NCBI GenBank assembly: GCA_963281255.1
Contig: OY725497.1
Span: forward strand, 3,216,968 to 3,280,967
Direction: 5' to 3'
Source: Aphrocallistes beatrix
Lineage: Eukaryota; Porifera; Hexactinellida; Sceptrulophora; Aphrocallistidae
Length of the DNA: 64,000 bases
In this document: positions 5,801 through 59,730 of the stretch, piece after piece
Layout of the letters: each line of letters starts with the position of its first letter
Numbering within the stretch: the stretch's first letter is position 1
Translations under genes and position numbers: made by a program
The notes under the pieces: model-generated
Told to the model about the DNA's origin: nothing
What the model saw: only the letters and a program-made list of their open reading frames with translations
The model's database searches: none

Positions 5801-6436
5801 AATAGGAGATAGGATTATGAAGAAAATAATGTTGAAATATTCGTCAAATTTGAACAGGTCAGAATTAATGATGGTTAAAACATTTCCGATTGAAATATTC
5901 TGGACTTGAGACAAAGACATGGTTTGGAGTTTGTGGAAAATCGCGGTTGTTAGGAGATTGCGGTATTTCATGCCGATTACGCTGAATGCATATTCTAATG
6001 TGTGACCCAAAAAACTATAAGCTGCACCACAAAAACAGAGCAAGGAAGCTATTCCTATCAAATGCCAAGTAGTGTAGATGCCATCATCTTCCAGAGCTCG
6101 TATTAGCCAAATCAGGATGAAGTAGGATGAACATACGAGAGCGAGATAAAGAAAACCAATAAGAGCAAGATATAAAAATGTGAAACGGAAGGTAAGGTAG
6201 AGAGCTAGCCACAATCTAGGAAGTTTTCCAGAAGTTAATCGATATAGTTCGGTATTCTAGTAATGAGAAAAGTGAATGTAGAGTTGTGATGAGTCTAATT
6301 CTGATGGTAAATTCGGAATAATTTTCAGTGTGATTGGAGATCGTTTGAGCCATTCCTTCCAGCCAAATAGTCCTATCCAAAGGAATGTAACAGAGGAGAA
6401 TGACCTATCCCATCTCCAGTTCCAAGCATTAGACAT
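2839..6436 (-). pseudogene. ABCC4/MRP4-like transporter, copy 1 (broken)
   Basis: This is a full-length relative of the intact gene at 10686-14534, starting at the equivalent ATG (6436), but with at least four lesions. (1) A Trp codon in ...IHFSHYW became TAG near 6258. (2) One A is lost from an A-run near 5295, shifting frame between TMD1 and NBD1. (3) One A is lost near 4327, shifting frame before TMD2. (4) An in-frame deletion joins ...IYLRED to RGGEKV, removing what is 11326-11598 in copy 2 (273 bp): the end of TMD2, the linker and the start of NBD2. Walker A (GRVGSGKSSLL), signature (LSGGQ) and Walker B (LLDD) of NBD1 remain legible, as does the NBD2 core. No introns are seen in any copy. 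A translated product could only be fragments. Confidence 0.9.
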
Positions 6437-14534: not shown

Positions 14535-14750
14535 TTCTACTTGAGGAATTTTGTGCTAACTAATGAGGCTTAAAATAGTTGTTGTCCGTTTAACTAATTT
14601 CAATTCTGAACACTAAGATATATGGTGTATTTGTGTTTTGTTAAACACTTGAACGAAATACCCAATGGCTGTGGAGATATCAGTACATACAATACGAAAT
14701 ATCGCCCGGTAGCAATCTGAAACTTATCATATAGAATCGAAATAAGCCTT
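14535..14750 (-). promoter_or_regulatory. Shared 5' flank of ABC copy 2
   Basis: This flank is shared with copy 1 (6437-6650) and with the fourth copy beside the gap (18733-18950). It is the best candidate for the transporter's promoter, by position only. Confidence 0.4.
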
Positions 14751-15411: not shown

Positions 15412-15960
15412 TCCTTACTATTAAAACTCGATTATTGTTTGTTTGTGTATATATATATATATATATCTCTGTAACGAATTGATTGAAGAAACTGCCAGGC
15501 GTAGAAAGCTGATTTTTGGCATGTGGGAGTCTTTTGGCTATGGGTCCAGTAAGTTCTGAGCTCAGACGAAAATGTCGACTCATCATGGAATTATGACGTC
15601 ACTGTCACATTTTTAAAAGTTAAGCAACACGTTATTTGGGCATAACTCCGCCATTATAGGAGATAGAAGGCTGAAATTTTGATAGAATCTTTATACTAAC
15701 ACGTCTCACATATGATGCAACTATCATCAAAAATTGATGACTCATCTTTGCTATGACCTCATCATTACTCATCAAAATTTTAAAAATTGACAAATTTGGT
15801 GCTTTTTCGTGTGATATCGATTTTAAAACTAAGATGGACATATTTAGAGATGATATATCCCGTTTAATTAACCAATGTCACCTCCAGGCGACCGAAGGGA
15901 GCCTCTGGCGGACACTTTGTGTCCGCCAGCCGCACAGCGCAAGCAAGCGAAGCGCGCTTG
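15412..15960 (+). mobile_element. Non-autonomous Helitron, unit 1 of a tandem array
   Basis: 549 bp. The 5' end is TCCTTACTATTAAAACTCGA preceded by A. The 3' end carries a hairpin (CAAGCG-AAGCG-CGCTTG) finishing in CTTG and is followed immediately by the next unit's TC end. This matches Helitron rules: 5' TC, a subterminal 3' hairpin, a CTNG-like terminus, no TIRs and insertion between A and T. There is no Rep/helicase coding. The core includes a TATATA run, GTAACGAATTGATTGAAGAA and several TGACGTCA-like sites. Confidence 0.8.
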
Positions 15961-16482
15961 TCCTTACTATTAAAACTCAATTATTGTTTGTTTGTGTATG
16001 TGTGTATATATGTAACGAATTGATTGAAGAAACTGTCAGGCACAGAAAGCTGATTTTTGGCATGTGGGAGTCTTTTGGCTATGGCTCCAGTAAGTTCTGA
16101 GCTCAGACGAAAATGTCGACTCATCATGGAATTATGACGTCATTGTCACATTTTTTAAAAGTTAAGCAACACAGTTATTCGGGCATAACTCAGCCATTAT
16201 AGGAGATAGAAGGCTGAAATTTTAATAGAATCTGTATACTAACATATTTCACATATGGTACAACTCTCATCCAAATATGATGACTCATCACTCTGTTATG
16301 ACGTCATCATTACGCATCAAAATTTTAAAAATTGATAATTTTGGTGTTTTTTCGAGTGATATCGATTTTAAATCTAATCTCCCTTATAATTAACCAATGT
16401 CACCTCCAGGCGACCGAAGGGAGCCTCTGGCGGACACTTTGTGTCCGCCGGCCGCACAGCGCAAGCAAGCGAAGCGCGCTTG
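15961..16482 (+). mobile_element. Non-autonomous Helitron, unit 2 of the array
   Basis: 522 bp, directly abutting unit 1 head to tail (CTTG then TCCTTACT, no spacer). It differs from unit 1 by TGTGTGTATATATG in place of the long TA run and lacks the segment with GATGGACATATTTAGAGATG. Nearly identical to unit 3. Confidence 0.8.
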
Positions 16483-18526: not shown

Positions 18527-18726
18527 NNNNNNNNNNNNNNNNNNNNNNNNNNNNNNNNNNNNNNNNNNNNNNNNNNNNNNNNNNNNNNNNNNNNNNNNNN
18601 NNNNNNNNNNNNNNNNNNNNNNNNNNNNNNNNNNNNNNNNNNNNNNNNNNNNNNNNNNNNNNNNNNNNNNNNNNNNNNNNNNNNNNNNNNNNNNNNNNNN
18701 NNNNNNNNNNNNNNNNNNNNNNNNNN
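18527..18726. other. Assembly gap (200 N)
   Basis: Exactly 200 unknown bases, which looks like a placeholder rather than a measured length. The right edge begins inside the start codon region of an ABC transporter copy on the minus strand, so the missing sequence probably contains most of a gene of about 3.8 kb, or the gap marks a mis-join. Confidence 0.95.
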
Positions 18727-19609: not shown

Positions 19610-20158
19610 TCCTTACTATTAAAACTCGATTATTGTTTGTTTGTGTATATATATATATATATATATCTGTAACGAATTGATTGAAGAAACTGCCAGGCGT
19701 AGAAAGCTGATTTTTGGCATGTGGGAGTCTTTTGGCTATGGGTCCAGTAAGTTCTGAGCTCAGACGAAAATGTCGACTCATCATGGAATTATGACGTCAC
19801 TGTCACATTTTTAAAAGTTAAGCAACACGTTATTTGGGCATAACTCCGCCATTATAGGAGATAGAAGGCTGAAATTTTGATAGAATCTTTATACTAACAC
19901 GTCTCACATATGATGCAACTATCATCAAAAATTGATGACTCATCTTTGCTATGACCTCATCATTACTCATCAAAATTTTAAAAATTGACAAATTTGGTGC
20001 TTTTTCGTGTGATATCGATTTTAAAACTAAGATGGACATATTTAGAGATGATATATCCCGTTTAATTAACCAATGTCACCTCCAGGCGACCGAAGGGAGC
20101 CTCTGGCGGACACTTTGTGTCCGCCAGCCGCACAGCGCAAGCAAGCGAAGCGCGCTTG
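19610..20158 (+). mobile_element. Non-autonomous Helitron, unit 1 (right duplicate)
   Basis: 549 bp, the duplicate of 15412-15960, with the same TC end, hairpin and CTTG terminus. The flank before it (TATAGCATTA) is the same. Confidence 0.8.
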
Positions 20159-20680
20159 TCCTTACTATTAAAACTCAATTATTGTTTGTTTGTGTATGTG
20201 TGTATATATGTAACGAATTGATTGAAGAAACTGTCAGGCACAGAAAGCTGATTTTTGGCATGTGGGAGTCTTTTGGCTATGGCTCCAGTAAGTTCTGAGC
20301 TCAGACGAAAATGTCGACTCATCATGGAATTATGACGTCATTGTCACATTTTTTAAAAGTTAAGCAACACAGTTATTCGGGCATAACTCAGCCATTATAG
20401 GAGATAGAAGGCTGAAATTTTAATAGAATCTGTATACTAACATATTTCACATATGGTACAACTCTCATCCAAATATGATGACTCATCACTCTGTTATGAC
20501 GTCATCATTACGCATCAAAATTTTAAAAATTGATAATTTTGGTGTTTTTTCGAGTGATATCGATTTTAAATCTAATCTCCCTTATAATTAACCAATGTCA
20601 CCTCCAGGCGACCGAAGGGAGCCTCCGGCGGACACTTTGTGTCCGCCAGCCGCGCAGCGCAAGCAAGCGAAGCGCGCTTG
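20159..20680 (+). mobile_element. Non-autonomous Helitron, unit 2 (right duplicate)
   Basis: 522 bp, joined head to tail to the previous unit. Its 3' part has the variant of unit 3 in the left array (CCTCCGG, CGCGCAGC), so it looks like a unit-2/unit-3 recombinant: the two arrays differ by one whole unit. It ends CTTG and is followed by TATACTATTATGG. Confidence 0.8.
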
Positions 20681-27317: not shown

Positions 27318-30300
27318 CTAATAAATATCCGCTAAAGGGGAAAATAGTGTGGTTGGATCTTCTAACAATATAATGGGAGATCCGGATTCAACAATTTGTC
27401 CATTCTTCATCACCAAAATCCGATCATGCTGCATTACGGTGTGGATACGATGAGCTATTGTAAACACGGTACACTTCTCAAACTTGGATTGCAACAGGCG
27501 TTGAATCTTGCTGTCAGTGATCGAGTCCACGTAAGAAGTGGCCTCATCCAACATTAGAATTCTACTCTGTTTCAGAATGGCTCGAGCTAGACACAGAAGT
27601 TGCCTTTCTCCAACACTGAAATTCGATCCGCCTTCAGATACAGAGAATTCGAGCTGTCCTTCAAGCTTTCTGACCTTCTCACCCAATTGCACTTCCTCCA
27701 ACACCTGCCAAACCTGATCGTCTCTGAACGAAGAGAACGGATCCAGTGCGAACCTGAGAGATCCACTGAACAGCACTGGGTCCTGTGGGATAATGGAGAT
27801 TTGGTTCCTCAACTCGTGGAGACCCAGCTCCCTCACATCTACACCATCAATACAAATGGAACCGGAAGACAATTCAACCAGTCTGAGAAGGGCATTCTGA
27901 AGTGAGGTCTTCCCAGAACCTGTCCTACCCACTATGCCTACTTTCTCTCCTCCTCGAACTTGGAAGGATACACCTTTCAAAACGAGAGGGAGTTCTGATG
28001 AATATCTCAACTCAACATTTCTGAATTCAACATCTCCTCTCGTCACATGGAACTGTGAGGCTCTACTGGAATGTAGAGGAGGTTCTTGAGGTAGATCGAT
28101 ATAGTCAAGCACTCTTTCAACTGATACCATGTTCATTTCAACTTCTGCGCTCATTCGTAAAGTAAACTGGGTACGATCTAACAAACTGAATACTAGCGAC
28201 AGGATAAATGCAGATACTATAGGGGAGAGATCTTCTCTCAAAAAAATAAGAATCACTGCCACTAGAAATCCATACACTGAGACAAGTACATCTACTTGAA
28301 AAACAAAAAAACGGATGTATGCGTAGAAAGTTCTCCAACACTTCAAATGAGTGTTCTGGTAAGCGAACATTTTCATAATCTGATGCGATTCCAGATTCAA
28401 GGAATGGATTGTAGTCAATCCGTGGAGGGTGGATGAGAAATGTGAAATGACGTCACTCTTGGCTGCAGATTCGATCCGTTTCAACTGACGAATTGTTCTC
28501 ACCAACTGGAAACGGTAAATAATTAGAATAGCGACTAGCAAGATACAGGGTACCAATGTCAGCCAGTGTGCCATCAGAGCAGCAACGAAAGTGAATAGCA
28601 TATAGAAAATAATGTAGAAATAAAAATAGAAAAATCGAGGTAAAAGATGGTCCATAGTTGAGATATCTTTAGCGAATCTGTTCATGATAGAACCAATCGA
28701 GTTGTTGAAGAAGAAACTGCTTGGAGCTCTCAACACACTCCACAACATTCTATTGTGAAGTTTGTGGGAAGCGAATGCGGGAATCCATGAGTAGGTAACT
28801 GAGCTGGCAATCAGTAGCAGACTCACGATTATGAGAAAGTACAATGAAAAAGTAGATACGCGTTTCAAAAGAAAGAGACACAAGCGGGTTCAGTCCACTC
28901 ACATTACGAGATGGAATACTCAGCATTGAGTAAGTAGTGCTATTAGTTACATTCGATTGGAATGCATTTGCCACTATCCACCAAACAAGGTAGTAATTCC
29001 TCCCCACAATCAATCCGAAAAAGGCTGTTAAACTGAGAAATAGTAATGAGAACATTCCCCAGATATTTCCACCACTCCAAAAATATTCTACATATACCAG
29101 CCAGGAAATCTTATCCAAACGAGTAATATCTTCCTTAATATTATCATCATTACAATGTATGGGATCTTGATAGGATAATTTGGTTGGAAAGAAATCTGTG
29201 TGAGTTGTTTGAGAAGTTTCAGAGACAGCTGATAATGCTTGGTTACATTCATCAGAATTCTCAGAATAATCATGATATGGTGTCAAAGTAGTTTGAATTG
29301 GAATCGAAGACTCGAATTGTGAGAATTGATTGAACTCAGGATGATCCATTATAGCTGAATAACTACCACAGGTAACTAAGTTGCCGTCTTCAAGAAGTAG
29401 GATCCTATCCATCCCTCTCACAAACTGGAGCTGGTGAGTGACTAAGATTGTAGTTCTACCTGACAGGATTCCTGTGGTGAAGATGGCAAACAGTTTCGAT
29501 GCTACACCTGCATCCACTGAACTCAGAGGATCGTCTAAGAGATAGACATCCATGTCAGCATACACTGCTCGAGCGAGACTGATCCGAGCCTTCTGTCCCC
29601 CACTCAGAGTGATGCCTCGATCTCCTACTACAGTCTGGTCTCCGTCTGGCAGTTGGGACAGGTCAAGTTCGAGACAACAGGATGAAACCACCCTGTCATA
29701 CCACGCTTCATCCCACGGTCTCCCGTACGTGATGTTATCTCGTATGCTGGTGGACACTATCCATGGTTCTTGAGGAACATAAGCACATGACCCATTCACT
29801 TCAAATCCACCCCTGATGATATCCAATTCATTGACTAGACTCAGTAAGAGGGAGGATTTGCCTGATCCCACTCTCCCAATCACTGATACTGTGTCTCCAT
29901 TGTTCATTTCAAACGAAATATCATTAATAAAAGAGTGAGGGTTGAGAGTAGCAGTGACTTTACCAGCTGTTAGGCCAGATACTTTGATGCGATATGCTGG
30001 GTTATGTCCTGATAAAGAAGTTGGATATATACGACCTGGAGCTTGTAAAATTATTTGTATTCGATTAATGCAAATCCTGAGTTCGCTAATTCCTGTAATT
30101 CCATAATTAAATTGACAGTATAAATAAGAGTATAAGAACATGTAAGCGGCGAATCCAAACACTCGACTCGAAGTGAATTCTCCTCCGATAGAAACAAAAA
30201 TACTTAAACATATCATTAATATGAAAAGCAGAGGAAACGAAATAGAGAGAGAAGAAGTTAGGACTTTTATGAAATGGTTTTGTAGAATCAGTAACAACTC

Positions 30301-31191
30301 ATGTCCTTTGATCTTTCTGATAGATTCAGCTACTGCATATTCCCAGGCAAAACATTTGATTAAACGAATGCCTTCAAAAAATTCCTTCAGATGGTTGTTC
30401 CTCTTATCCGACCAATTCAAGGCTCTTAGGTAGACAGCAGATAACAAGTTCCCCAAACAAAGTTGCATAAACAGATGTAGAAGAAATAATGGAATGATTA
30501 GTGTGGCAGTCCATCCAATCTCTAAGACAGCTAGACCTACCATCACAAGAATGCCAATGGGAGATAGGATTATGAAGATAATAACGTTGAAATATTCGTC
30601 AAATTTGAACAGGTCAGAATTAATGATGGTTAAAACATTTCCGATTGAAATATTCTGCACTTGAGACAAATACATGGTTTGGAGTTTGTGGAAAATCGCG
30701 GTTGTTAGGAGATTGCGGTATTTCATGCCGATTACGCTGAATGCATATTCTAATGTGTGACCCAAAAAACTATAAGCTGCACCACAAAAACAGAGCAAGG
30801 AAGCTATTCCTATCAAATGCCAAGTAGTGTAGATGCCATCATCTTCCAGAGCTCGTATTAGCCAAATCAGGATGAAGTAGGATGAACATACGAGAGCGAC
30901 ATAAAGAAAACCAATAAGAACAAGAAATAAAAAGGTGAAACGGAAGGTAAGGTAGAGAGCTAGCCACAATCTAGGAAGTTTTCCAGAAGTTAATCGATAT
31001 AGTTCGGTATTCCAGTAATGAGAAAAGTGAATGTAGAGTTGTGATGAGTCTAATTCTGGTGGTAAATTCGGGATAATTCTGAGTGTGATTCGAGATCGTT
31101 TGAACCATTCCTTCCAGCCAAATAGTCCTATCCAAAGGAATGTAACGGAGGAGAATGACTTATCTCATCTCCAGTTCCAAGCATTAGACAT
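27318..31191 (-). pseudogene. ABCC4/MRP4-like transporter, copy 3 (broken)
   Basis: Full length and co-linear with the intact copy at 10686-14534, with the equivalent ATG at 31191. Codon 9 is TGA instead of TGG (Trp). A small replacement near 28835-28850 (about one extra base) shifts the frame at the first helix of TMD2, so the sequence reads as a 739-codon N-part (28750-30969) and a 521-codon C-part (27318-28883). All NBD motifs (GRVGSGKSSLL, LSGGQ, LLDD; GRTGSGKTSLQ, SVGER, MLDEATSYVD) are intact. With only two lesions this copy decayed recently, and an internal Met at 30969 could still give a truncated half. The 3' flank is shared with copy 2 to about 27095; the 5' flank diverges after about 31222. 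Confidence 0.9.
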
Positions 31192-34850: not shown

Positions 34851-36707
34851 TCAAGTCATGTGTCTAGACCCGGCGATGTACCGAGTGTCCCGCAGGACGT
34901 TCGAAGTGCCGCGGTTGGCGCCCTCCCGCTGGCACTGCTTGCACCTCTCGTAGCGACTGGTCTGGTCCAGGATGGAGATGTACTCCTTCTTCTCCTCCCT
35001 CTCCTCGAACTCCTCTTGCCCCTTCCTCTCTGCGATGCTCTGGTCCCAGGACTTAGCCAGCTGTGAGTACTTCTCCTGTCGATCTTTGAAGCTCGTCTCC
35101 CTGTCCTGCACCAGCTGTTTCTTGGTGGCACTCAGCTGGAGAGCCTCCACCGCCCTGGCGGTGCGGGTTGTCTCCAGTTGGACCTGCTTCTTCTGTTCAG
35201 ACGTGCTTCGCTGCTCCTTGTACAACTGTTTCGCTTGTTCGCGCTTCTCCTTATGTCTGTTCAGCTCCAGTTGAATCAGGTCGACCCCTTCCCCCTTCAA
35301 GATCGGCTCCTTCACCTCTTGCTCTCTGCCCTGTCGCGAAGTCACCTGGTAGTCGAGCGTGTCGTGGTAGATCCTGGCATTCTCCAGTCGCTGCTGATGG
35401 TACAGCTGGGACTCCCGGGCCATGGCCTGAGTCAGTCGCTGTTGGTCCAGCTTCTCTGCATCTTTGGTGAGGCGGAGAGCTAGCTCCATCTCGAACTGCT
35501 TGTCCTTCACCTGCTGCGCCAGGTCGGTCCAGTACTCGTGCTGCTTCAGGTAGCGGGAGGGAGTGGTGGAGCGGGAGTGGAACAGGTAGGAGGGTTCCGT
35601 GGATTGAGAGCGGACTTTGCGCGCCAGGTGACGCCCTTCTGACGCGCTCCAGTTCTGAGCTGACACCTCTTTGTTCTCCTTCCGGCGCTTGGCCAATGCC
35701 ATCAGGTCGCGAGCTATCACAGCTGCGTCCTGTTCCATCTGGAACTTGAGCTGCTCCTTCCCATCCCCATGCGCCAGCTTGCTCCCGTCGACAGGAGGCG
35801 GGGTCGCATTCCTCGCGGAACGCATCTCGCAACAAGGACACATTCCATCCCCCGCCGCCTCCCCTCGGTGGTGCGAGAGCTTGCTGCCGCTGGAGGCGCC
35901 AGGGGTAGGGGCAGACTTTGTTCTGGAGCGAGGGTCTGTTGAGGCGGGAGGAAAAGTGGCTTTCGTCACGATGGAGAGTTTGGAGGCAGGCTTGCCACTG
36001 TTCGTGACGGAGAAGAGGGGGGGCTTGGCAGGGGAGATAGGGGGCTTGCCGGGGGAGTGTGAGATCTGCGGGAGGGTAGGAGTTTCACCTTTGAAAGAGG
36101 GACTCGCGGAATGGCTGTCAGAGAGGGGGATGGAGGAGGAAGATGGTGAAAAAGGTGAGAACAGTCGCGAAGTGTAATTATCCGGAATGCCTAAAGAGTC
36201 GAGGAATTCCTGAAAGAACTTTACCTTGACTTTCTTACTTCTGAAGTAGAGGCTGCAGATGCCAGAGAAGACCAGAAGCAGGCTTTGTCCCTTCTCAATG
36301 GTGCGTTTGAACAGCATCAGCATTTCCTTGATACAGCCCATCACATTGTCGCGTGAGCGGCCGGCCAGCTGGGATATGGCACTGAAGTTGAGCTCCATGA
36401 GGGACAGCTGTCCGGATACGTGTGGTTTCTGCCCCTGTGCTCCCATCGCTGTGGAAAGTATGAACATGGGGCGGCTGACGTCGACGGATTCCTTCTGTCC
36501 GAGAAAAATCTTTTTGAGTGAGAAACAGAATGTTCCCAACCCCGGGATAATCACCCCCTTCCTCTGCACCATCTGCTCCTGAATGAAGACACACATTGCT
36601 TCCCAGATCGAGGTAATCTCGGAGGGAGCGAGTTTGTTGAGGGAGTAGAAGGCAGAGGTGTTGGCGGCATCGCTTAGCAGAGAATCTAGGGTGGCTAAGG
36701 TGGCCAT
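34851..36707 (-). CDS. CCDC81: CCDC81-like HU-domain coiled-coil protein
   Basis: 618 residues, one exon. The first in-frame ATG is at 36707 (MATLATLDSLL); the open frame extends further upstream without an ATG. Residues about 15-185 match the tandem HU-type domains of CCDC81: EITSIWEAMCVFIQEQM, QRKGVIIPGLGTFCFSLKK and later NVMGCIKEMLMLFKRTIEKG and VFSGICSLYFRSKKVKVKFF. The middle (about 195-330) is Ser/Pro-rich and likely disordered. The C-terminal 250 residues are highly charged Glu/Lys/Gln coiled coil, ending with RYERCKQCQREGANRGTSNV. In vertebrates CCDC81 is linked to centrosomes and cilia. Orthology rests on domain order and motif similarity. GC content is clearly above the surroundings. 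Its 3' end and flank are duplicated at 10002-10356. Confidence 0.85.
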   Translation of the reverse strand: MATLATLDSLLSDAANTSAFYSLNKLAPSEITSIWEAMCVFIQEQMVQRKGVIIPGLGTFCFSLKKIFLGQKESVDVSRPMFILSTAMGAQGQKPHVSGQLSLMELNFSAISQLAGRSRDNVMGCIKEMLMLFKRTIEKGQSLLLVFSGICSLYFRSKKVKVKFFQEFLDSLGIPDNYTSRLFSPFSPSSSSIPLSDSHSASPSFKGETPTLPQISHSPGKPPISPAKPPLFSVTNSGKPASKLSIVTKATFPPASTDPRSRTKSAPTPGASSGSKLSHHRGEAAGDGMCPCCEMRSARNATPPPVDGSKLAHGDGKEQLKFQMEQDAAVIARDLMALAKRRKENKEVSAQNWSASEGRHLARKVRSQSTEPSYLFHSRSTTPSRYLKQHEYWTDLAQQVKDKQFEMELALRLTKDAEKLDQQRLTQAMARESQLYHQQRLENARIYHDTLDYQVTSRQGREQEVKEPILKGEGVDLIQLELNRHKEKREQAKQLYKEQRSTSEQKKQVQLETTRTARAVEALQLSATKKQLVQDRETSFKDRQEKYSQLAKSWDQSIAERKGQEEFEEREEKKEYISILDQTSRYERCKQCQREGANRGTSNVLRDTRYIAGSRHMT

Positions 36708-37164
36708 GCTCCTTATAATGGAAAAAGATGCAATAAACAGGCATGAAACATCGTTCAGCAATATATAGTATTATTCAAGGGATAAATTATGGATAGTATC
36801 CAATCCCCCAAAATATCATTATTGGAATGATTAAATCAATAAAACATATCAGAAACTGTCTATAATATGCGATATAATCTGGTCAAATTGACATGATAGG
36901 GGGCATGCTTAATTTCCGGGAGGGGACGAGATCTTCCCGGGAAATATAGATACTGTACCTAGTTTACGAGACTGGACGGATAAAATACCCAATTTTCATC
37001 CCGTCCCGTCCCAGAAATTAGTCATGTCCCATGATAGGTTTTCACTAAACTACCGGTATGCAAAGGTTACTAAAACTCAATAGTACATACAGCATGAATA
37101 TAACTTTGAAAATTCATATTTATAAAGCTAGAAAAGAGATCTCCCAACCATTATTAATAAAGAA

Positions 37165-44105: not shown

Positions 44106-45077
44106 AATATCATGTTTTTTTCTGATATACGAGGGGTACTCAGTATTGTTTGAGCCTGGAGGAGTTGCTTACGTTTGAAAGTGTTGAAATTATTAGGATT
44201 ATTCATCCACCTATTCTTATTTTTGGCTTTAAGTTGGATTTCAATTGGACAAGTTTCTAAAATATTATGCCACATATAAGGGAGTGTCCTTGTGGACTCC
44301 GACACATTTGCAAGTCATTTACTCTGGGATTTTTATTTATTATCTTTACGAAAAATTGATAGTTGGGAAAAACCTTTTTTAATTCAATATTATCAATGGT
44401 GAGGTATATTTTAACAATCCGGGGAGATTCTATGATTATCATAATTAAATTTCGTTTCCTAAACATAAATACATTCTTAAAGATATCCTAATTCGACACT
44501 TGTGGTTGTGTTTTCATATATGCTAATACAAAATATCTACAAAATATCTTACACTCAAGACTCAAATCAAAAGATAAGAATTGGTGGATGAATAATCCTA
44601 GGAATTTTCAACGCAATAAAACGGAAGCACTACTCAAGGCTCAAAACATACAGTACTCCTGTGTAACAATTTCTCTGAAATTGAATAGCATGCTCATTCC
44701 CAATTAGAAAATTACCCGAATTAATAACAAGATATCCGTTAAAGACAAATAATTAGACTATCTTAACATGGCCCATGTTAAAACTAGTCTACTGGCCAAC
44801 ATGTCATGTCGAGTGGAGAGTTCTGAAATTATGATGCTAACCTAACCATGATAAAGCTACATCATTTATTCATGAATAACACAATCAAGAACCTCCTCTT
44901 CCAGAGAACTAGTCACGATATTTTCATATATTCATTAGACGCGATTGAGCATGATATTATGTGATTTTACAAAACCAATTTACTTAACCTAAAAGAGGCA
45001 TAGAATAGGCTGTACGATTTCAAATATATATTGCTCTCTCCATTTAGTTTGACATATTTTAGCTAACGTTGGATTCA
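44106..45077. other. No gene seen
   Basis: AT-rich DNA upstream of the bHLH-PAS gene. Several short minus-strand frames have no recognisable features. Confidence 0.4.
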
Positions 45078-45998
45078 ATGATCCCAAACCGATTTCCCTT
45101 CGCCCCTGATCTGACTTCAGACACATCTTATTTCCCAACTCAGTGCGTTCCAACAATTCGCCAATTCCATACCCTGAACCCCACCCCACATAATGACCTA
45201 CCTTCAGATCCACTTATTCCCGCTCTGATAAGTGCTGATGATTTGGATTTGGCTTCAGCGGTTGGAATTTGTGAAGCCCCAAGATCGAAAACTACTTTTT
45301 CGAATCCATCCGCCAGTAAGCACGGTGCTAAGGTCAAGCCTAAGCTCCTGGAAGATGAAGATCACTCCAAAAGATGGAGAAAAGACTATCACAACGCAAT
45401 CGAAAAAAGGAGGCGGGACCAGATAAATTCTTACATTGAAGATTTGCAGATATTGTTGCTGGAAGAGAAAGTTGTCACCCCCAATTGTGATAAAGTGACG
45501 ACTCTCTCTGCCGCTATTGACTACCTGAAGACCTACAACTCCCGTCTTCCCACATTCTCTATCAGTTCATTCGTAAAGAGCGAATTTACAAGTCTATTCA
45601 CTGAACTTGATGCAACCTTCCTGCTCACATTCAGGTGCTTGGATTACATGATACTCTACGTGTCTGATGGTGCTACGGGCATATTGGGGATACCCCCCTC
45701 CATGTTAATTGGACAAGTACTCCTCAACTTCATCCATTTGGAGGAGGTAGAAGACTTCAAAAGTGAGCAGAGAGCGAGACAGATTAAATGGAATAACTTA
45801 AATTCAAAACGAGAGGAAAAGGCCGACATTAATTTTGTGAATAATATGATTGCGAAAGATCTGGAGACAGGGCATCACAGTCTGTTGCCTATACTATTCC
45901 GTGGTGAATTCAAAAGGATTCCAAATCTAATCCCAGACAAAATGCCCGGAGATACTGATGCTCTCTGTTTTGCAGCGGCACTAAAATCGTTAATATAA
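45078..45998 (+). CDS. bHLH-PAS transcription factor, short
   Basis: 306 residues from the first ATG at 45078, no introns. Residues about 95-155 form a bHLH domain: basic region RKDYHNAIEKRRRDQINSYI with the His-x-x-x-Glu-Lys-Arg-Arg-Arg pattern of E-box binders, then a loop (KVVTPNCDKV) and helix 2 (TTLSAAIDYLKTY). Residues about 185-240 (DATFLLTFRCLDYMILYVS, then GILGIPPSMLIGQ) resemble a PAS-A domain as in ARNT, BMAL or CLOCK proteins. These factors act as dimers in the nucleus, in circadian, hypoxia or xenobiotic responses. The protein ends soon after PAS-A: no PAS-B, no C-terminal activation region. A spliced downstream exon is possible but a stop follows directly. I cannot assign an orthologue. 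Confidence 0.75.
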   Translation: MIPNRFPFAPDLTSDTSYFPTQCVPTIRQFHTLNPTPHNDLPSDPLIPALISADDLDLASAVGICEAPRSKTTFSNPSASKHGAKVKPKLLEDEDHSKRWRKDYHNAIEKRRRDQINSYIEDLQILLLEEKVVTPNCDKVTTLSAAIDYLKTYNSRLPTFSISSFVKSEFTSLFTELDATFLLTFRCLDYMILYVSDGATGILGIPPSMLIGQVLLNFIHLEEVEDFKSEQRARQIKWNNLNSKREEKADINFVNNMIAKDLETGHHSLLPILFRGEFKRIPNLIPDKMPGDTDALCFAAALKSLI

Positions 45999-49270: not shown

Positions 49271-50041
49271 TCAATTCCTGTTCCTAGAGGTTCTGTTTAT
49301 CCCAACAAAATTGTTCACCAACTTAACAAGCCATACCATTTGTACAAATGTAATGAATCCAACAGTGAGGAAACATATTGATGGAATTCGAGAGAAAAGA
49401 TGTCTAAGCGAGACCTGATAGGTTAAACAAAATTTCAGAAATAATAAAGGAAATGAAAGTATACGACAGAGAAAGAAAGTGATGATAAAAAATATCTGAT
49501 TCCAAAAATAAAATTTTGTCTCTTCCAAATAAAATACTTTAAGAAATCTTCTCGTACACCAAAAAAAGTTACTTATATCCATCAACATAAGTGATCCAAG
49601 GACAAAATCTCCGAACCCTCTTCTAATGTTATACAGGTCAAAAGCAATTGGATAGCCGATGGCCAAAATCCCAACGTGATGAAACACGATAAGGAATTCA
49701 CTCTTGATGAATTTCAACAGTATGCTGATCGAATTTTCGAGACCTTTTTCTCTGATATATGATATGTACATAGCCACCAGATCATAGATGATATATGGGA
49801 AAATAAAAGAAATAATAGGTTTGTACAGTTTGGACCTAAAATATATCATTTCTAGCTGGGTCTCCCACATCACAAGTACTCCACCAGTGACGACACAGAC
49901 AGATTGTATAGCACAAACACTCCTCTCGGCCAATAATATTGAAATACGTTCTGTATAGCTCAATTTCTTATAGAACCAGATAAAGAATAAGTACATACTC
50001 GGGAAAGTTATAATTCCCAGGGCGCATGTCTGTAAATACAT
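49271..50041 (-). CDS. TLC-domain membrane protein, TLCD3/FAM57-like
   Basis: 256 residues from the ATG at 50041, one exon. About six to seven hydrophobic segments run through the protein. FLIVFHHVGILAIGYPIAF, then RRGFGDFVLGSLMLMDISN, then FFLCRILSFPLLF match the TLC (TRAM-LAG1-CLN8) core of TLCD3/FAM57 proteins, including the consecutive His residues and the G-D-F segment. The length (about 250) also fits that family. FAM57B is reported to modulate ceramide metabolism at the ER/Golgi; whether this protein has ceramide synthase activity cannot be told from sequence. Codons are AT-rich, unlike the GC-richer neighbours. Convergence or operon-like coupling with the next gene is not indicated: the spacing is about 650 bp. 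Confidence 0.75.
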   Translation of the reverse strand: MYLQTCALGIITFPSMYLFFIWFYKKLSYTERISILLAERSVCAIQSVCVVTGGVLVMWETQLEMIYFRSKLYKPIISFIFPYIIYDLVAMYISYIREKGLENSISILLKFIKSEFLIVFHHVGILAIGYPIAFDLYNIRRGFGDFVLGSLMLMDISNFFWCTRRFLKVFYLEETKFYFWNQIFFIITFFLCRILSFPLLFLKFCLTYQVSLRHLFSRIPSICFLTVGFITFVQMVWLVKLVNNFVGINRTSRNRN

Positions 50042-50696: not shown

Positions 50697-51624
50697 TCAA
50701 CATGACATAGTATGAGTCATAAAGTCGTCATAGCCTAAGCTAGCATAGCCTTGTCTCTGTGTGTCGCGCGAAATGAAAAAGCTTGAGAGGGAGCGGATTC
50801 TAGTAGTGAGAGCGATAAAATCGTCGAAGTAAATTTTCCCATTGGTATTATAGCGCTTCATAATCACGTTAAGAGCTGTGGCGGATAGAGAGTATCCGAA
50901 ACTGGAGATAGCTGACTTGAGCTCTTGTTCGTCTAGGGAACCAGAATGGTCTTTATCTAATTGTTCAAACGTCTGTTTCCATTTTTGAAGAACAACCCAG
51001 AGTTCTTTAAACTCAGGAAACTCCATCTTGCCTGAGAAGAGAAGAAAATCATATATAATCCACATCCAAATACGTACCAAGTACGTGCTTACCTGATCTG
51101 TCGCGGTCCAGGAGTGTTATCATTATCTTACAAGTCTCTTGAGTGAAGGGCTTGTATGAACCGGTGAACCCAGACTGACTCAGACACTTACACAACTCTA
51201 CTGCATCGATCTTCTGGTCGGCGCCTGCTACCATGGAGAACGTTGCCCAGAGAGGGTCAGCGGGGGGAGCCTGGGCGCCATAAGGATTGGCGGCAGGGGG
51301 CGCTCCGTAGCCTACACCCGGCCCCGCAGTCCCGGGCTGTGCGGCGGAGGGGGCGCCGTATGGACTGGCGTGAGGAGCTGTAGGCGCGCCGTATGGGGAG
51401 GATTGAGGTACAGCTGGGGTCCCATAGGGGAAAGATTGGGGGACAGCGGGAGCTGCTTGAGTTCCGTAGGGAGAGGGCTGGGGAGCAGCTGGGGTCCCGT
51501 AAGGGGAAGGTTGAGCGGCCCCGAAGCCAGGAACTCCTGGATGCCCTGCTGGGTACTGTCCGGGAGGAGGTTGACCGTATTGGCCGGGAGCTGGGGCTCC
51601 GGGGTAACCTGATTGATGAGACAT
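50697..51624 (-). CDS. SRI: Sorcin/grancalcin-like penta-EF-hand protein
   Basis: Two exons: 51624-51093 and 51031-50697, with a 61-bp GT-AG intron (GTAAGC ... TTCTCAG). The protein has 288 residues. Residues 1-115 are a Pro/Gly/Tyr/Gln-rich tail with repeated SPYGTPA-type units. Then come five EF-hands: DPLWATFSMVAGADQKIDAV, LLDRDRSGKMEFPEF, QLDKDHSGSLDEQEL (a canonical calcium loop), YNTNGKIYFDDF and a final dimerisation hand ending YDDFMTHTMSC. The motif string GSYKPFTQETCKIM is diagnostic of the sorcin/grancalcin group. Such proteins bind calcium, form dimers and move to membranes, modulating ion channels. The N-terminal tail is much longer than in vertebrate sorcin and nearer in length to peflin, but the core is sorcin-like. 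The next gene on the same strand ends 332 bp upstream. Confidence 0.88.
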
Positions 51625-51956: not shown

Positions 51957-54900
51957 TCAGGCATCTGTAGCCTCGACTGAGTTAGGATCCAGCTGGAATG
52001 CAATGGCTTGCATTGCAGCGTCTGTTTCGATGATGTTAGCATTAGCTAGCCTCATCAGCTGGGAGGAGGACAACTTCTTAAGGTCTAGCTCTCGGAGCAA
52101 ATGGTCTGAAGGAATAATAAAAACATAAAGAGAAGAATCGGTGTTATATTAATGATGAGGTAAGAAGAAATAATTAGGGATTTTACATTTTTACCATTTG
52201 ATGTTGATTCTACTCTTTCCCCTACGTCCATGGTTCTCAAGGAGACAGTACCCTCGTTCCCCACAAATCAACTTACTAATGAACGTGCTCTTTTGATCTA
52301 GCGGCTGGTAGTGAGCATCTCCCCAGGCGAGGATGGCATTCAGCTTCACTTCTTCCTGAGCCTTCAAGTTCCTCTGCATGATGGAGGAGAGCAGAAATTC
52401 TGAAATGTTAGGAAAGAAGTCTGAACACAAAACCTCTTCTGCGTGGAGATCTGTAAACGCCAACACCTGAAAATATCAGAATAAACAAGATTGTAATGAG
52501 GATTGATTCAGCAATCACGACTGCAGTATTCAAAATACTGAGTCTACCTTAACAGTGAGAGTCTTGGCGCTGGGGAAATGGATATAAGTCTCCAGGGAGG
52601 AGAGAACTGGACAGATGAGGTCTAAGTGCAGGCAATGGGGGAGGTGCTCGAAGCAAGCCTGTCTCAGTTCAGGGAGGTCAAACAGGTCTGAGGCGCTGAC
52701 TAGTCCGGCGATTGTGAGAGGATTGATAACGCACTGTCCGCACACTAGGTATTCCATCAGCTGACTGAAGCTTATCTGGATAAATCAGTTGCTAATTTAT
52801 AGTATCCCACCAGACAATATGGGTTTAATTATAGTGTAATTACAAAGTTTAATCTACTGAAATAATTATATCTTGGTGTAACGTGCCAATTAAGCAGTGT
52901 TGCCAGATGAACTGCTTAGCATGTTCATGCCACATACCTTCAAATGTTCATGCCAAGTTCATGCCATACAGTATTAAATGTTCTTGCCAAGTTCTTGCCA
53001 AAGCTCAAATGTTTATATCAAGTTCATGCCATGTCATGTCAAATGAAAGAAGTATTTTGCCATGTTCATGCCAAAAGTAAGAAGTATTTTGCCATGTTCA
53101 TGCCAAAAGTAAGAAGTGTTTATGTCATGTTTATGTCAAAAATAAAAGTTCGTGCCATATTCATGCCAAAGTTCATGTTCCATGCCATGATATGGCAACA
53201 TTGCAATTAAGGAATTCCCACTAATGCATCTGAGATGTGTGTGATAACATCTCTACATTAAAACTTCATACAAAATCGGAAAACATATTCTTCATTAAAT
53301 GACACCAATAGGAGGCCCCTACGAATATGAGTTCGACAGCTGAGTAGCGTGTGAAAGCAAAAATAGCGCGCTTATTTTGAATGAATCAACACAAAATGTG
53401 TATTTTATTATAAATCAATGAACAGACCCCTAAGAACTAGGTAACTACTCGTACATATTAGTATGATAATGCCGGGGCAGGGAATTTCGGTCAAAGTATC
53501 ACTGCACTATAACCACACCAGTACACTATATCCATGAAATTTGTATGGAACATCTTGGACGGGGCATCTCAAACTGGTCAAAATGATCACTATATCCAAT
53601 ATCTACTGCAAATTGTTTCAATTGTTCGAGAAAGTTTATAAAGTTTCTGATACTCACTTCATCGAAATCCTCATACACATACTGATCGAGATGTGCATAC
53701 TCGTTAATCCTACGGAAACTGCTCTTCTCTGCGCCTCTAAAACTACCCACCTTCCCTCTGAAGGACTTCTTCTTGCTCTCCACCGAAGTAGCGCTGTGTC
53801 TCTCCAAAGGAGACTCACAGTTGAACCTCCGACGGAGTTTGTGGGACATTGAGCTACTGGGGCGACGAGTCAGAGAGGAGCGTTTCGTCGACTTTTTAGT
53901 TTTTTTACTCTTATCAGGCGGCTTTGATAGGAGCGAGGCCAGAGTCCGAGATCTGCTGGCGATGATAGACCTTATCCCTATCGAACATTCCACATTTAGA
54001 ACCCAAACTACTCTGTAACTATAGAGCTACATGTATAGGTCAGAATGCTTACCAAATATCGGGATTTGATTAGGACTGACAATAAAAACAACATCACACA
54101 GCTCCGGCACAGAAAATGCCTTCTTATAGTCGGACACTAGTCTCTCTACATTCTCGTACATCTCAGTATTCAGGAAAGGAGTCTTGAATCCCCTCCTCAC
54201 TGTGACCTTTCGCACACATTCATAGTCTTCCATAGCGCGACATAGGTGCTCCAAAAGATAGGTGCGCGTCCGTTTCTGTAGCTGCTGGAATTTGGGACTT
54301 TTGACTGCGGCTTTCTCTGAGTTAATACATTTACAAATGATAAAGTCTTTCAGTCCTGGACCGGGTTCGAAGAGGTCGTTCTCGAAAAGGTAGGGACTGA
54401 AGATAGGGACTCCGTCTCTACACACTGTCGCGATCTTGTAGCCGACCTAAGGTATTCGCACATAATATTACTAACTGGAATCTGATAAAAAAGGCTCACA
54501 CAACTTCCTCGGAAAAATAAATCTTGTGCGAGTTATTTAAAAAATACAGTCAACTCCGCTTAATCGGGACAAGTCTCCAGCAACTGAATGGTTCCCATAC
54601 ATAGAAGCTAATACTAAATTTAATCGGTTAATTGGGAATTCCGCTAATAGGGGAAAAATATCCGGGACCAAAGTGTCCCGATTAAGCGGAGTCACCTTCA
54701 ATTCAATTTCGTGATAAATCTCAATTGTCTATAAGATTAACATTAATATAATTAAAATCCCTATAAGCTCCAACTCACCGGCACTGAAGAGTCGTTTCCG
54801 TATAGGACCTTAACAACAATGAACACGTGTATGTATTGCGACTTGACAGCTCTGGGAGAGAAGACCGCGTCCCCTTCAAGGAATATGATGCAGACTAGGT

Positions 54901-57900
54901 CGTTCCCGATGTGTCTCTTCTTCTGCACCATCTGCTCGTCAGAGGGGGAGTAGGGGAGCAGAGTGGCCACGTGACACATTACTTCATAACCTTGCCACCT
55001 AGTAGAAACAAGTGTTTGTAGAGAAGAGGAGAGGAGTGAGAGAATTTGGTCCAGACTTCGTGTTTTACAGATAATGTTTGGGAAAAATTTTTTGAAATCT
55101 TTCAGGATCAAATTCTAGCTTAACTTCATATAATGTAACTACCTCGTGTAGATGGAATATTTCCCTGTCGTGGTATTATGTACGTCTAGACCTCCGTCAA
55201 ATTCAGGAAACCCTTTCAAGACCACTCGATCTCCCAGGATTGAAAGGAAGTCTCTGAAATGTCCAGGCTCATCCTGGTTACTCAGGAATTCAAGTTCCGT
55301 TTTCTGTCCGGGCTTGATGTTTATAACTCCTATCTTCACCTACACAGATTATAGTCCAGTGGAAACCGACATAGAAATGGCCCAATCCTGACATTCTAGT
55401 ACTTTTGGTTCCGACGCTTTATTTACAAAAATGTCAAAAAAATTCAACCAAAGTCAACCTTGGGAAAATATGACTACCCAAATTCAGAATACACATGTTT
55501 CCACACAGTTAAAATATGTGTGTAAAGTTGATTTTGTTGGTTTTTTTGACATATTTTGGGTGCATCTAAAGCATTTGAAACCAAAGCTGCTTGTTATCTA
55601 AAATATCAGTGTCAATCTCTATCGGACTAAAAGGCAGACATTGATACTAGGGTTTGGAATCCGGATAGTAATATCCGGATACTATCCGGTTACCTAAACC
55701 ATACAAATTATCCGCTATCCGGATATTAGCCTGACGGATATCCGGATTCATACAATTGATTCGTTTAAAATCGTTATAACAAATCTGATACAAATATAGA
55801 TTCGTTGCTGTTAACAAGCTTTAAGCATAATACCAATAACAATGATTGTTTTGCTATAACACATTTCTATACATACTACTCGACTATCTGTCTGATTCTA
55901 TCAGCTACAAGATGACTATAAGTATATTATCCAAATATTTCCTCCAAATATAAAAAACCTATAAGCAAAGCATTGATCGATATTGCAGCTACAGAGAAGA
56001 TGGACTCAATTGATTGGGAGATTCTTGATCATATTTGTCGATGCCTAAAACCAATTGAGATAGCTGTTTGTGCCTTAAGTCGTAGAGATGCAACTTTGCT
56101 CTCAGCTGAAGGGGTATACCGATTTTTGATGGATCAGTTTGATAAAAATTCGTCAATTTCATTCTGTCAAGATCTGAAATCGGCTGTAGAGAAGCGCTTT
56201 CTCGAACGAAGACAAAATAATATTGTGAATATATATCGTTTTCTTCTTAACCCAAGTGGAATATCTGGAGTACAGACAAACAATTCCACCCTACCCTCCA
56301 AGCACATGCTTGTCTCAACTATTAAGAGATTATTTTTGAGATTATTTCCTAGCGAATTTTCAGATACTGAATCGCAATTCATAAACGTTGAAGGGATATT
56401 CGAGGAGAGTCATGCTGGTCAAGAAGCTCCTTGTGAAATTGTACACAACTTCACAAGCCCAGGTCTCATGCAACCTACTAACCTAATGCTGGTTGAACTT
56501 GAAAGTGCTATTCGCGAATCAACAACTACCACAAACGTCAAGATTCCCACTCAGACATTAGATCAAATTATAAGTGATGAGTTGGATCTCTTCAGAAAGA
56601 CTGGTACAAAGTCAAAAAATCTCACCTTAGTCTCGGAAGCTTTGGACACAATACCTCCAACTAGCATAGAGTCTGAAAGAGCGTTTTCGGCTGCTGGTCT
56701 CTTCATAACAAAACTACGATCTAGATTAGCTGATGATATTTTAGATAGTTTATGTTTCATCAGAAGTTATTTCAAGAATCAAAAGAATTAGACTAATATA
56801 TTACACATCATTACTTATTTTGTCATTCGTTTAGATTAATAATTAATGTTCGTTGAATTAGTCAATTATCTTAGGTAATACATGTGAAAGACAGAGGTAT
56901 TATTTGTAGGCGGATATCCGGATACTCTGATGAAAAAGTATTCGGTATCCGGATATTTGTGAAAGACGGATAATTCCAAACCCTAATTGATACAGTGCTG
57001 GATTATTAGCTAAAATAGGAATAATTCGTTCAACAGAAACCTTATCTTTAACGAACGCTTCGTCCATGTTGAGTATCTCCAGCTCTGCTTTAGGGTAGCT
57101 CGCAATCCTGAATTGCTCCTTCAGTCCCAACTCTCTGGTCAGGGCCTGGACGCAAGCTCTGATGTCTGACGCGTGGAAGTCTCTTGCCTCCACTATTCCG
57201 TGCAGGAAGTGTTCCTTGGATCTGAGGATGATCCGGTACTGGGAAGCACTGGTGTAAGGGGAGTAGGAGCCCTGGTAGTATACACAAGTGCTCACCTGCT
57301 ACGCACTTCAATCGTAAAGATACTCAAAGGTCACTTACTGATGGGGGGTTGGGGTTGGGATGGTGGAATGTTCCCTCAGAGAAGGGCATGATGGAGAGAA
57401 GACAGGGGCCTTGTTTAGATTCCTGGTTCGAGTGAGTGAAGTAATTAATGTGGGGATGGCCTTTGAAGAACCTGCGGTAGTTCTCACTCTCATGGTACTC
57501 TATCTCATAGAGCAAGAGGGTATCTACAGCATGAGTAAGGTCAGTCGGGAGTCCGTCCTCAGCAGTAGAGTCTACTCACCATCCGTGACGGACAGTCGGT
57601 ACAAGTCGCACTCATCAATGCTCCCAAACAGCCGCCCCTTCTTCCTCCCCGCGTGAGCAGGCACGGACTCCTCTCCCAGCTCAGTGCGGGCAGAGCCGCC
57701 GCGGGATGAGCCGCTGGAGGTGCAAGCACTCGCGGTGTGAGGTCGGAACGGCTTGGTCTCGTACCAGTACCCGTCTGCTCTGTTGATGGAGAGGAACTGC
57801 AAGATATAATAAGGAATGATGAAGTATTAAAAGTGCCTTTTTCCCCTCCAACAATCCTGGCTACCATCACAACTGTGGTATAGAGATTCACGTTGCTTAT

Positions 57901-58159
57901 TAGTGGTCACCTGGTGGTCACTGGTGTGCCTGAGAGACTCGAGTGAGGAGGCGGGGTCTGTTCCTCTCTGCAGGAGAGTGCTCCTTCTCTCCCTGCGCCC
58001 CGGACTCAGCTGTAGCTCGTAGCGGCTCTGAGAGCCAGCCAACTGGGGACACTTGTCCGGAAAGAAGAAGTGTCTTAACACCTCTGGAGGGAGGAGCGTG
58101 TTGTCAGAGTGCTGGAGGAAGGTGCCTCTTCCTCGGGGGAGCTGAGACTGAGTTGTCAT
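51957..58159 (-). CDS. RapGAP-BTB-BACK fusion protein, 11 exons
   Basis: Proposed exons (minus): 58159-57911, 57796-57580, 57523-57339, 57295-57041, 55339-55143, 54998-54779, 54446-54053, 53977-53658, 52775-52548, 52466-52277, 52105-51957. All introns are GT-AG, every phase fits, and the total is 867 residues. Residues about 150-300 match the N-terminal part of Rap GTPase-activating proteins (ENYRRFFKGHPHINYFTHSN, QYRIILRSKEHFLHG). Residues 303-500 form the catalytic RapGAP domain: FDGGLDVHNTTTGKYSIYTR, then KKRHIGNDLVCIIF, in which Asn400 is the expected catalytic Asn thumb, then YIHVFIVVK. About 552-720 is a BTB fold (ELCDVVFIVSPNQIPIFG, ASRSRTLASLL, SQLMEYLVCGQCVI) split by an insertion of about 90 residues that is Lys/Arg/Ser-rich. 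About 720-860 resembles a BACK-type helical tail. The expected role is to turn off Rap-type GTPases, with BTB for dimerisation or Cullin-3 binding. Intron 4 holds a hAT element. Confidence 0.82.
52886..53210. repeat. TTCATGCCA minisatellite within TIR-like ends
   Basis: Inside intron 8 of the RapGAP-BTB gene. Repeats of ATGTTCATGCCA and CAAGTTCATGCCA, including two tandem copies of AAAGTAAGAAGTRTTTTGCC-type units, fill the interior. The ends CCAATTAAGCAGTGTTGCCA and TGGCAACATTGCAATTAAGG are imperfectly complementary, suggesting a MITE whose core is a minisatellite. The plus-strand open frames here are repeat translations. Confidence 0.5.
54545..54703. mobile_element. Pogo/mariner-like MITE, about 155 bp
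   Basis: In intron 6 of the RapGAP-BTB gene. Left end TACAGTCAACTCCGCTTAAT and right end (complement) GTGACTCCGCTTAATCGGGAC; the TIR is about 25 bp. CAGTCAACTC... ends are typical of pogo/Tigger-type elements. Related ends occur at 18487 and 33462, and a diverged version near 60460-60620. Confidence 0.65.
55648..56985 (+). mobile_element. hAT transposon, internally deleted, 1338 bp
   Basis: TIRs TAGGGTTTGGAAT (left) and its complement (right), with subterminal ATCCGGATA repeats near both ends. An exact 8-bp duplication ATTGATAC flanks it (55640-55647 and 56986-56993). It lies in intron 4 of the RapGAP-BTB gene, opposite to its direction. It encodes only a transposase C-terminus. Confidence 0.92.
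55973..56791 (+). pseudogene. hAT transposase C-terminal half
   Basis: 272 codons open; the first ATG in frame is at about 55999. The end PPTSIESERAFSAAGLFITK, RSRLADDILDSLCFIRSYF is the hAT dimerisation region (hATC) with its S-x-x-S/A-E-R-x-F-S core. Full hAT transposases are around 600 residues with a BED finger and an N-terminal DDE half; these are missing, so the protein cannot transpose on its own. The matching TIRs and 8-bp target duplication confirm the family. Confidence 0.85.
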
Positions 58160-58298: not shown

Positions 58299-59093
58299 TC
58301 ACACGTTAAACAGGTCTGTTGGTCGCACCGACTGTACCTTGAGAGGAAGGGTGCAAGGGATGAGCCAGAAAGGAGAGAGAGGTCCAAACACCAGACGGAG
58401 ATTTTCTAGAGTCGTGGTTTTATTGCTGGAGACCCTACCCTTCATGATCTCGACATAGGTTGTGTTATTAACCGCGCAGTAGAGCTGTATCAGAAACACG
58501 TTGCTGAGGAAGCCGATGAAACCGATGCAGAGTGCGTAGGCATTCACGATTATGAATATCCGCGTCCCGTAGCCGTCGATGGGGAGGTTCTGCTGACAGG
58601 CAGGGACAGTTCCTCCGAACAGTACAGCCCCTGACAACACAACGAGAGATAGGTATGCACAGCAGAGCTGATAGAAGACCAGGTGAATAAAGTATTTCTG
58701 GTTGCTATGTCCTACACAGCGATCAATCCACACACAGTGATGGTCCATCCGCCAGACACAGCGAGCGCATGTGCTGCAGTGGTGGATTCGCGGCGTCTTG
58801 AGGGAGTTGCACTTGACACAGAACCGGATGCGCTCCTTGTGTACCAGGTGTTCAGGCGCGTCCTCAGGCGTAGCTGTGTCCTGCTCAGTGAATCCCGGAT
58901 CCAGGAATAAGAGTGCGAAGTGCAGAGCCACAGCACTGCAGGCACAGAACCAGTAGATGTAGTAGACAGTATTGGAGGCACGCCCGAACAGCTGACAGGT
59001 GTAGAGAAACTTGTACTCGATGAAAGATGAGAAGAGAATCACAAAAGAGTGCCCGCAAAGGGCACACAGCATCTTGATCCAGTGGCTAACCAT
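58299..59093 (-). CDS. DHHC palmitoyltransferase
   Basis: 264 residues from the first ATG at 59093, one exon. Two N-terminal hydrophobic segments are followed by the DHHC Cys-rich domain (about residues 88-135): RFCVKCNSLKTPRIHHCSTC, ARCVWRMDHHCVWIDRCVGH, then NQKYFIHLVFYQL; two further membrane segments follow. The catalytic Asp-His-His-Cys is intact. The usual CPWVNNCVG is CVWIDRCVG here, an atypical choice in a generally strict motif. The enzyme would transfer palmitate from palmitoyl-CoA to cysteines of target proteins in Golgi, ER or plasma membrane. The subfamily cannot be assigned. It lies 139 bp upstream of the RapGAP-BTB start, same strand. Confidence 0.88.
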   Translation of the reverse strand: MVSHWIKMLCALCGHSFVILFSSFIEYKFLYTCQLFGRASNTVYYIYWFCACSAVALHFALLFLDPGFTEQDTATPEDAPEHLVHKERIRFCVKCNSLKTPRIHHCSTCARCVWRMDHHCVWIDRCVGHSNQKYFIHLVFYQLCCAYLSLVVLSGAVLFGGTVPACQQNLPIDGYGTRIFIIVNAYALCIGFIGFLSNVFLIQLYCAVNNTTYVEIMKGRVSSNKTTTLENLRLVFGPLSPFWLIPCTLPLKVQSVRPTDLFNV

Positions 59094-59730
59094 GAAGTTG
59101 ATGCACACTCTACCACCACGTATATGCTAAGGTAAGTATTACCATAATATTCAGTGATCTTACATTAAAATAAAGCACTGTAATGATAGACTTTCTCACT
59201 TGCCGTCTTGCCCTGAATAAGGACCCGGAGCAGATTTTTCCTTGTGCACCTTAAACCCCGGCGCTTTGTTTTTCGTGTTTAAAAACCCCTGAGGCTCAAA
59301 ATTTTAAAGCTCCGTATCGGTCGAAAAACATCACACTTGAAAGAGATAAAAGATTTCCAATCTCATTACTAATCACTAAGAATATTCATAATGTCAAACT
59401 CCTCCGTGCTTATTCATGGATAGACAGCAGTAATAGCATCTGGGCACAAATATTCCAATTTTCTCCAGCAAATATTTGTTATGTCTTTCATATAATATTA
59501 TGCAATTCTCACGTATTGTAAATGTAATTACGTACTAAGCTATCGTGGACCGATAAGTTACAAGTTTGAAAAATTAATTTTAATGAATATTATCTAATTT
59601 TGATGGATTCCATGCATTAGTTCGAATTGTCATGTAGTCGTCATTTCGAATCAGTTCTTTGGCAGACAAATATTTCGAATTATGGCCATGTTTCGGCCAG
59701 ATTGGCATCTTCAGGAAATCTGAAATGGAA

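Follow-up and report, generated by a model that had tools for sequence, protein, structure and literature searches.

Rap is an adhesion GTPase, and the domains that accompany the catalytic part of Rap GAPs (GoLoco, PDZ and CNH) probably determine the place and timing of its inactivation. The GoLoco motif is typical of the RAP1GAP subfamily, and GARNL3 is a RapGAP with CNH as an extra C-terminal domain. BTB–BACK modules usually dimerise, and gigaxonin, KLHL3 and KLHL11 are adaptors of Cul3.

In the glass sponge Aphrocallistes beatrix, a RapGAP and a BTB with a BACK-like tail are encoded by one gene, which is confirmed at the level of the DNA sequence. The window analysed is a stretch of 64,000 nt of contig OY725497.1, and the gene lies on its minus strand at 58159–51957 (Table 1). 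The first-pass annotation of this DNA described eleven exons with matching phases; re-derivation of the boundaries gave the same 11 exons and an encoded protein of 867 aa. The coding sequence of 2604 nt runs from an ATG at 58159, the first in the open frame, to a TGA that ends at 51957. GT–AG borders are found at 10 of 10 introns and the phases fit across all joins. Introns 2 and 3 measure no more than 56 and 43 bp (computed from the exon ends), and intron 4, of 1.7 kb, contains a hAT element oriented against the gene. The sole run of N in the window is at 18527–18726, and the fusion gene is free of N.

Table 1. Exons of the RapGAP–BTB–BACK gene and other features of the window
Feature	Positions	Strand	Content
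Exon 1	57911..58159	-	Residues 1-83, without recognised domain; opens at first ATG of the frame
Exon 2	57580..57796	-	GYWYE, like SYWIEG of the RAP1GAP-like paralog (by eye)
Exon 3	57339..57523	-	N-terminal RapGAP region begins (YRRFFKGHPHINYF); BLASTP alignment with the RAP1GAP-like gene from residue 171
Exon 4	57041..57295	-	Rap-GAP dimerisation domain (PF21022, 5.9e-7)
Exon 5	55143..55339	-	First part of RapGAP catalytic domain
Exon 6	54779..54998	-	RapGAP catalytic core: KRHIGND, Asn400
Exon 7	54053..54446	-	Fusion exon: RapGAP end and BTB start (PELCDVVFIV) in one open frame
Exon 8	53658..53977	-	BTB helix (RSIIASRSRTLASLL) and 81-aa basic, Ser-rich insertion
Exon 9	52548..52775	-	BTB second half, then start of BACK-like region
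Exon 10	52277..52466	-	BACK-like region
Exon 11	51957..52105	-	End of BACK-like region; tail AFQLDPNSVE vs AFQADPESVD in the C6 paralog
hAT element, intron 4	55640..56993	+	Not part of the fusion protein
ABCC-like ABC-transporter stretch, first of three successive	2842-6256	-	Across three overlapping frames
ABCC-like stretch, middle	10689-14555	-	1289-aa single frame, two ABC domains
ABCC-like stretch, last	27321-31164	-	Across two overlapping frames
119-aa open frame, two identical copies	15741-16097 and 19939-20295	+	Flank the N run
CCDC81-like protein	34854-36770	-	Two eukaryotic HU domains (1.2e-18, 2.1e-18)
bHLH frame	45063-45995	+	bHLH domain (4.3e-10), then PAS-like stretch (by eye)
Neighbour frame	49274-50041	-	TLC domain (2.9e-14)
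Neighbour frame	50700-51116	-	EF-hands (4.2e-12)
Neighbour frame	58302-59126	-	DHHC palmitoyltransferase domain (9.5e-29)

The hAT element has perfect 13-bp inverted ends (55648-55660 and 56973-56985). A target duplication of 8 bp, attgatac, stands on either side of it, and its 289-aa frame includes a hAT dimerisation domain (2.1e-7). Because the target duplication is exact, the insertion appears to be fairly recent. The doubled 119-aa frame elsewhere in the window reflects either a duplication in the recent past or an artefact of the assembly.

The genome searched comprises 100.5 Mb in 28 contigs, and long single-exon frames are present in it. For Aphrocallistes vastus, a nuclear genome of 80 Mb that has 19,578 genes is given, and 12,409 of its transcripts consist of a single exon (PMC10282587). 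One of the 28 contigs, C28 (L033/L034), is the mitochondrial genome of 17,996 bp, whose genes were named by eye. AGR stands for Ser in it, as judged at conserved Ser sites of COX1; atp9 is present, no atp8 was seen among the open frames, and nad3 adjoins cox1. The contig also shows the block atp6–cox3–nad2–nad5–trnF–trnC–nad1–(I, N, Y)–cob; the published block includes a tRNA-Leu, which was not found between nad1 and cob here. Two overlapping frames make up cox3, and nad2 overlaps with nad5. For glass-sponge mitochondria, AGR to Ser, retention of atp9, loss of atp8 and the atp6-to-cob block are reported, as is nad3 next to cox1 in A. vastus (PMC2267718). The hexactinellid mitochondrial traits are thus found on this contig, apart from tRNA-Leu, and they indicate a glass sponge close to Aphrocallistes.

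The RapGAP half of the protein is readily recognised. Pfam places the Rap_GAP domain at residues 321–502 (9.1e-53, 179 bits against a cut-off of 27) and Rap-GAP_dimer (PF21022) at 233–298 (5.9e-7, 30.3 bits, cut-off 27). KRHIGND is intact at 395–401 and its Asn thumb is Asn400, which bears out the catalytic RapGAP domain that had been assigned from the letters of the DNA. The best match of the fusion protein in the PDB is Rap1GAP (1srq, 6.4e-52), followed by 6ssh, a ‘GTPase activator-like protein’ (3.8e-15), RalGAP (7.3e-15) and tuberin (2.9e-11). GoLoco gave no match in a Pfam scan at E up to 10, a scan in which the HMMER filters drop most matches above approximately 0.1. As GoLoco was not found, the fusion protein is filed as RAP1GAP-like and not as RAP1GAP.

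A search of the genome with Rap_GAP gave seven matches, which represent three exons of the fusion gene and four other genes; a six-frame search may miss RapGAP genes that are cut into small exons. By recognition, we take the four to be a RAP1GAP-like gene (contig C19), a SIPA1L-like gene (C9), a TSC2-like gene (C18) and a RALGAPA-like gene (C16), and the fusion protein aligns with them at 182, 151, 63.5 and 45.8 bits, respectively. The Rap motif DTAGTEQF is found in three genes of the genome, two of them Rap1-like and one Rap2-like by eye, and the backwards control pattern in none. Substrates for a Rap GAP therefore exist in this sponge. Since the Asn thumb is intact, and by family membership, Rap GAP activity of the fusion protein is likely.

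The C-terminal half contains the BTB, which scores 1.3e-5 and 25.8 bits in the whole protein and 29.1 bits in the C-terminal half, above the Pfam cut-off of 20.5. BACK stays below its cut-off of 20.9, with 14.7 bits (0.033) in the whole protein and 17.9 bits (0.0033) in the C-terminal half. Pfam finds no kelch match in the fusion protein and NCBIfam no match in the C-terminal half. When this half alone was compared with the PDB, with the insertion removed from the query, KLHL3 (2.9e-4) and gigaxonin (1.3e-3) were matched.

The BTB–BACK part is supported by a second gene. The whole fusion protein gives 17 matches in the genome: 11 to its own gene, four to the other RapGAP genes and two to a frame on contig C6 (L025 2069-4063, minus strand), which apart from the fusion gene is alone in being related to the C-terminal half (1.9e-21 and 4.3e-4). 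This paralog is a stand-alone frame of 664 aa with BTB, BACK and a Ser-rich tail, and has no Rap_GAP. It passes both Pfam cut-offs (BTB 60.3 bits, BACK 23.5 bits) and aligns with the whole C-terminal half of the fusion protein at 28% identity. In both proteins a basic insertion follows the same BTB helix, and both have the end motif A-F-Q-x-D-P-x-S-V. With both insertions removed, the alignment of the BTB–BACK cores scores 309, and the maximum among 500 shuffles is 57. A two-sequence profile made from the fusion protein and the paralog matches gigaxonin (3e-10), KLHL3 (7.4e-7) and also KLHL11 in the PDB, and aligns over gigaxonin and KLHL11 past the BTB; these stronger scores are partly due to the C6 paralog. 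Against the BTB assignment, a six-frame search of the genome with the BTB profile gave 29 matches, which list the C6 gene and not the fusion gene; in the latter, three exons share the BTB. The C6 gene presumably resembles the insect serine-enriched protein; no description of a serine-enriched protein with BTB was found in the open-licence PMC literature.

Because the C6 paralog passes both cut-offs and aligns throughout, it secures, at the level of sequence comparison, the BTB assignment of the fusion protein and makes the BACK assignment likely. A BTB and a BACK-like tail after the RapGAP had been recognised in the first-pass annotation. The BTB is upheld by its own score and the tail by its alignment with the paralog; in the Pfam scan of the protein, RapGAP and BTB are found above cut-off, and BACK is not.

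A large basic insertion in the BTB had also been noted, and it is found at residues 590–670. These 81 aa contain 24 K/R and 7 D/E, a net charge of +17, and stretches of equal length outside the insertion never exceed +7. There are three S-F-R sites within this basic, Ser-rich sequence. Its composition suggests an electrostatic membrane anchor that may be released by phosphorylation, or perhaps a nuclear signal.

Could two adjacent genes, one for a RapGAP and one for a BTB protein, have been mistakenly joined? The gene model is known from the DNA sequence alone and genes are packed tightly here, the DHHC frame (58302–59126) being less than 150 bp from the ATG of the fusion gene. Exon 7 bears on this point. 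Taken by itself, it gives a match to the final third of Rap_GAP (PF02145, 30.1 bits, cut-off 27), and at its end lies PELCDVVFIVSPNQIPIF, a stretch that aligns with the opening BTB strands of the C6 paralog. The exon 7 frame alone has no Pfam BTB match at 0.001, and the BTB start within it was placed by alignment with the paralog. However, with the RapGAP end and the BTB start in one frame, the join is independent of the choice of splice sites, and a two-gene model would need to split exon 7. The phases fit throughout and no N run interrupts the gene, and thus an erroneous join is highly improbable. A real fusion in which the BTB part is degenerate, serving as a linker only or decaying, is very unlikely. 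Consistent with degeneration, the fusion protein scores below the C6 paralog for both BTB (29.1 vs 60.3 bits) and BACK (17.9 vs 23.5 bits), and the His that is usual before the BTB helix, present in the paralog (PVHAVRAIL), is not conserved in the fusion protein (PIFGIRSII). On the other hand, the frame is open through exons 7–11 and the end motif AFQxDPxSV is conserved, which suggests constraint.

A further possibility is a bifunctional Rap regulator, in which Cullin-3 is recruited through the BTB–BACK part: Rap would be switched off, and Rap, the protein itself or a partner would be marked for ubiquitination. LZTR1 acts somewhat comparably on Ras-family proteins. The solved structures that the BTB–BACK part resembles most are those of gigaxonin, KLHL3 and KLHL11, the Cul3 adaptors mentioned above, and the genome has cullins (26 matches for cullins in general, with exon pieces among them). 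Cul3 adaptors have a hydrophobic-x-Glu motif after the BTB helix, but this is absent directly after the helix that precedes the insertion. The insertion begins at the usual position, and within residues 586–676 the motif is found only at 663, at the insertion end, and at 673, in the next strand. In addition, the His ahead of the helix has not been conserved, and there are many BTB proteins that do not interact with Cul3. The suggestion made earlier of a coupling to Cullin-3 is therefore possible but unsupported by the sequence, the motif being missing at the expected place, and a bifunctional regulator of this type is unlikely. An elaborate form of it, a two-output regulator of sponges or glass sponges, would combine a GAP dimerised by BTB–BACK and a phospho-sensitive membrane insertion with delivery of Rap or a partner to Cullin-3, such that hydrolysis and turnover are coupled. 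This is quite unlikely.

What appears probable from the sequence is that a RAP1GAP-type GAP and a BTB–BACK module of a separate family were joined, and that the resulting Rap GAP is paired or recruited by BTB–BACK, with the basic insertion near a membrane. The RAP1GAP-type unit would have contributed its dimerisation and catalytic domains to a single glass-sponge gene, and the source of the BTB–BACK module would be a BTB family whose stand-alone gene survives in the same genome. The fusion protein would supply Asn400 and speed up GTP hydrolysis on Rap. Dimerisation through BTB–BACK can reasonably be expected from the fold; it would pair two GAP units, or the module could bring the GAP to a partner. 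Together with the dimerisation domain of the RapGAP, this may give a doubly paired enzyme. The basic Ser-rich insertion would keep the protein near an acidic membrane until phosphorylated. The most likely function, as predicted from these domains, is that of a Rap GAP kept dimeric by BTB–BACK, perhaps at membranes.

No description of a RapGAP and BTB architecture was found in the open-licence PMC literature, as represented by titles and the beginnings of abstracts. The text of a paper on Dictyostelid regulators has neither BTB nor RapGAP (PMC8923023). Two scans of viral contigs gave 73 and 22 pattern matches and prokaryote genomes gave 71; tblastn confirmed none of the viral matches, and none of the prokaryote matches was confirmed. 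This is as expected for an animal gene. The architecture is ‘not found described’ and is not termed ‘unique’; it combines known domains in a new way. With BTB–BACK as partner, the same Rap switch would be controlled differently. Glass sponges have syncytial tissue. In the glass sponge Oopsacas minuta, the loss of numerous genes held pivotal for animal morphogenesis is reported (PMC10280926). With these two properties, a rewired Rap regulator is a testable lead in glass sponges.

Among known systems, the fusion protein resembles RAP1GAP and RAP1GAP2 in its dimerisation domain and its catalytic Rap_GAP with KRHIGND, and is closest to them both in the PDB and among the RapGAPs found in its own genome; it differs in that it has no Pfam match to GoLoco (weak matches being mostly filtered) and carries a C-terminal BTB–BACK. 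SIPA1 and SIPA1L (SPAR) share the Rap-class GAP domain, and along 290 residues the fusion protein is 34% identical to the SIPA1L-like gene on C9, but that gene runs on into a PDZ-like region (by eye) where the fusion has BTB–BACK. GARNL3 also has an additional C-terminal domain on its RapGAP, which is CNH in GARNL3 and BTB in the fusion. An origin from GARNL3 is not supported, as judged from the positions of the matches: none of the six CNH matches in the genome is near a RapGAP match of the six-frame search, which could miss RapGAP genes cut into small exons. The stand-alone gene on C6 shares the BTB, the basic insertion at the equivalent place within it, the BACK (likely in the fusion protein) and the end motif, and differs by its 664-aa frame with the Ser-rich tail and by its lack of Rap_GAP. 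KLHL proteins and gigaxonin show the same BTB–BACK order, whereas the fusion protein is without kelch and has a RapGAP at its N-terminus. Perhaps RhoBTB comes near in concept, as it also combines a GTPase-pathway domain with a BTB that contains an insertion, although that domain is GTPase-like in RhoBTB and a GAP in the sponge protein.
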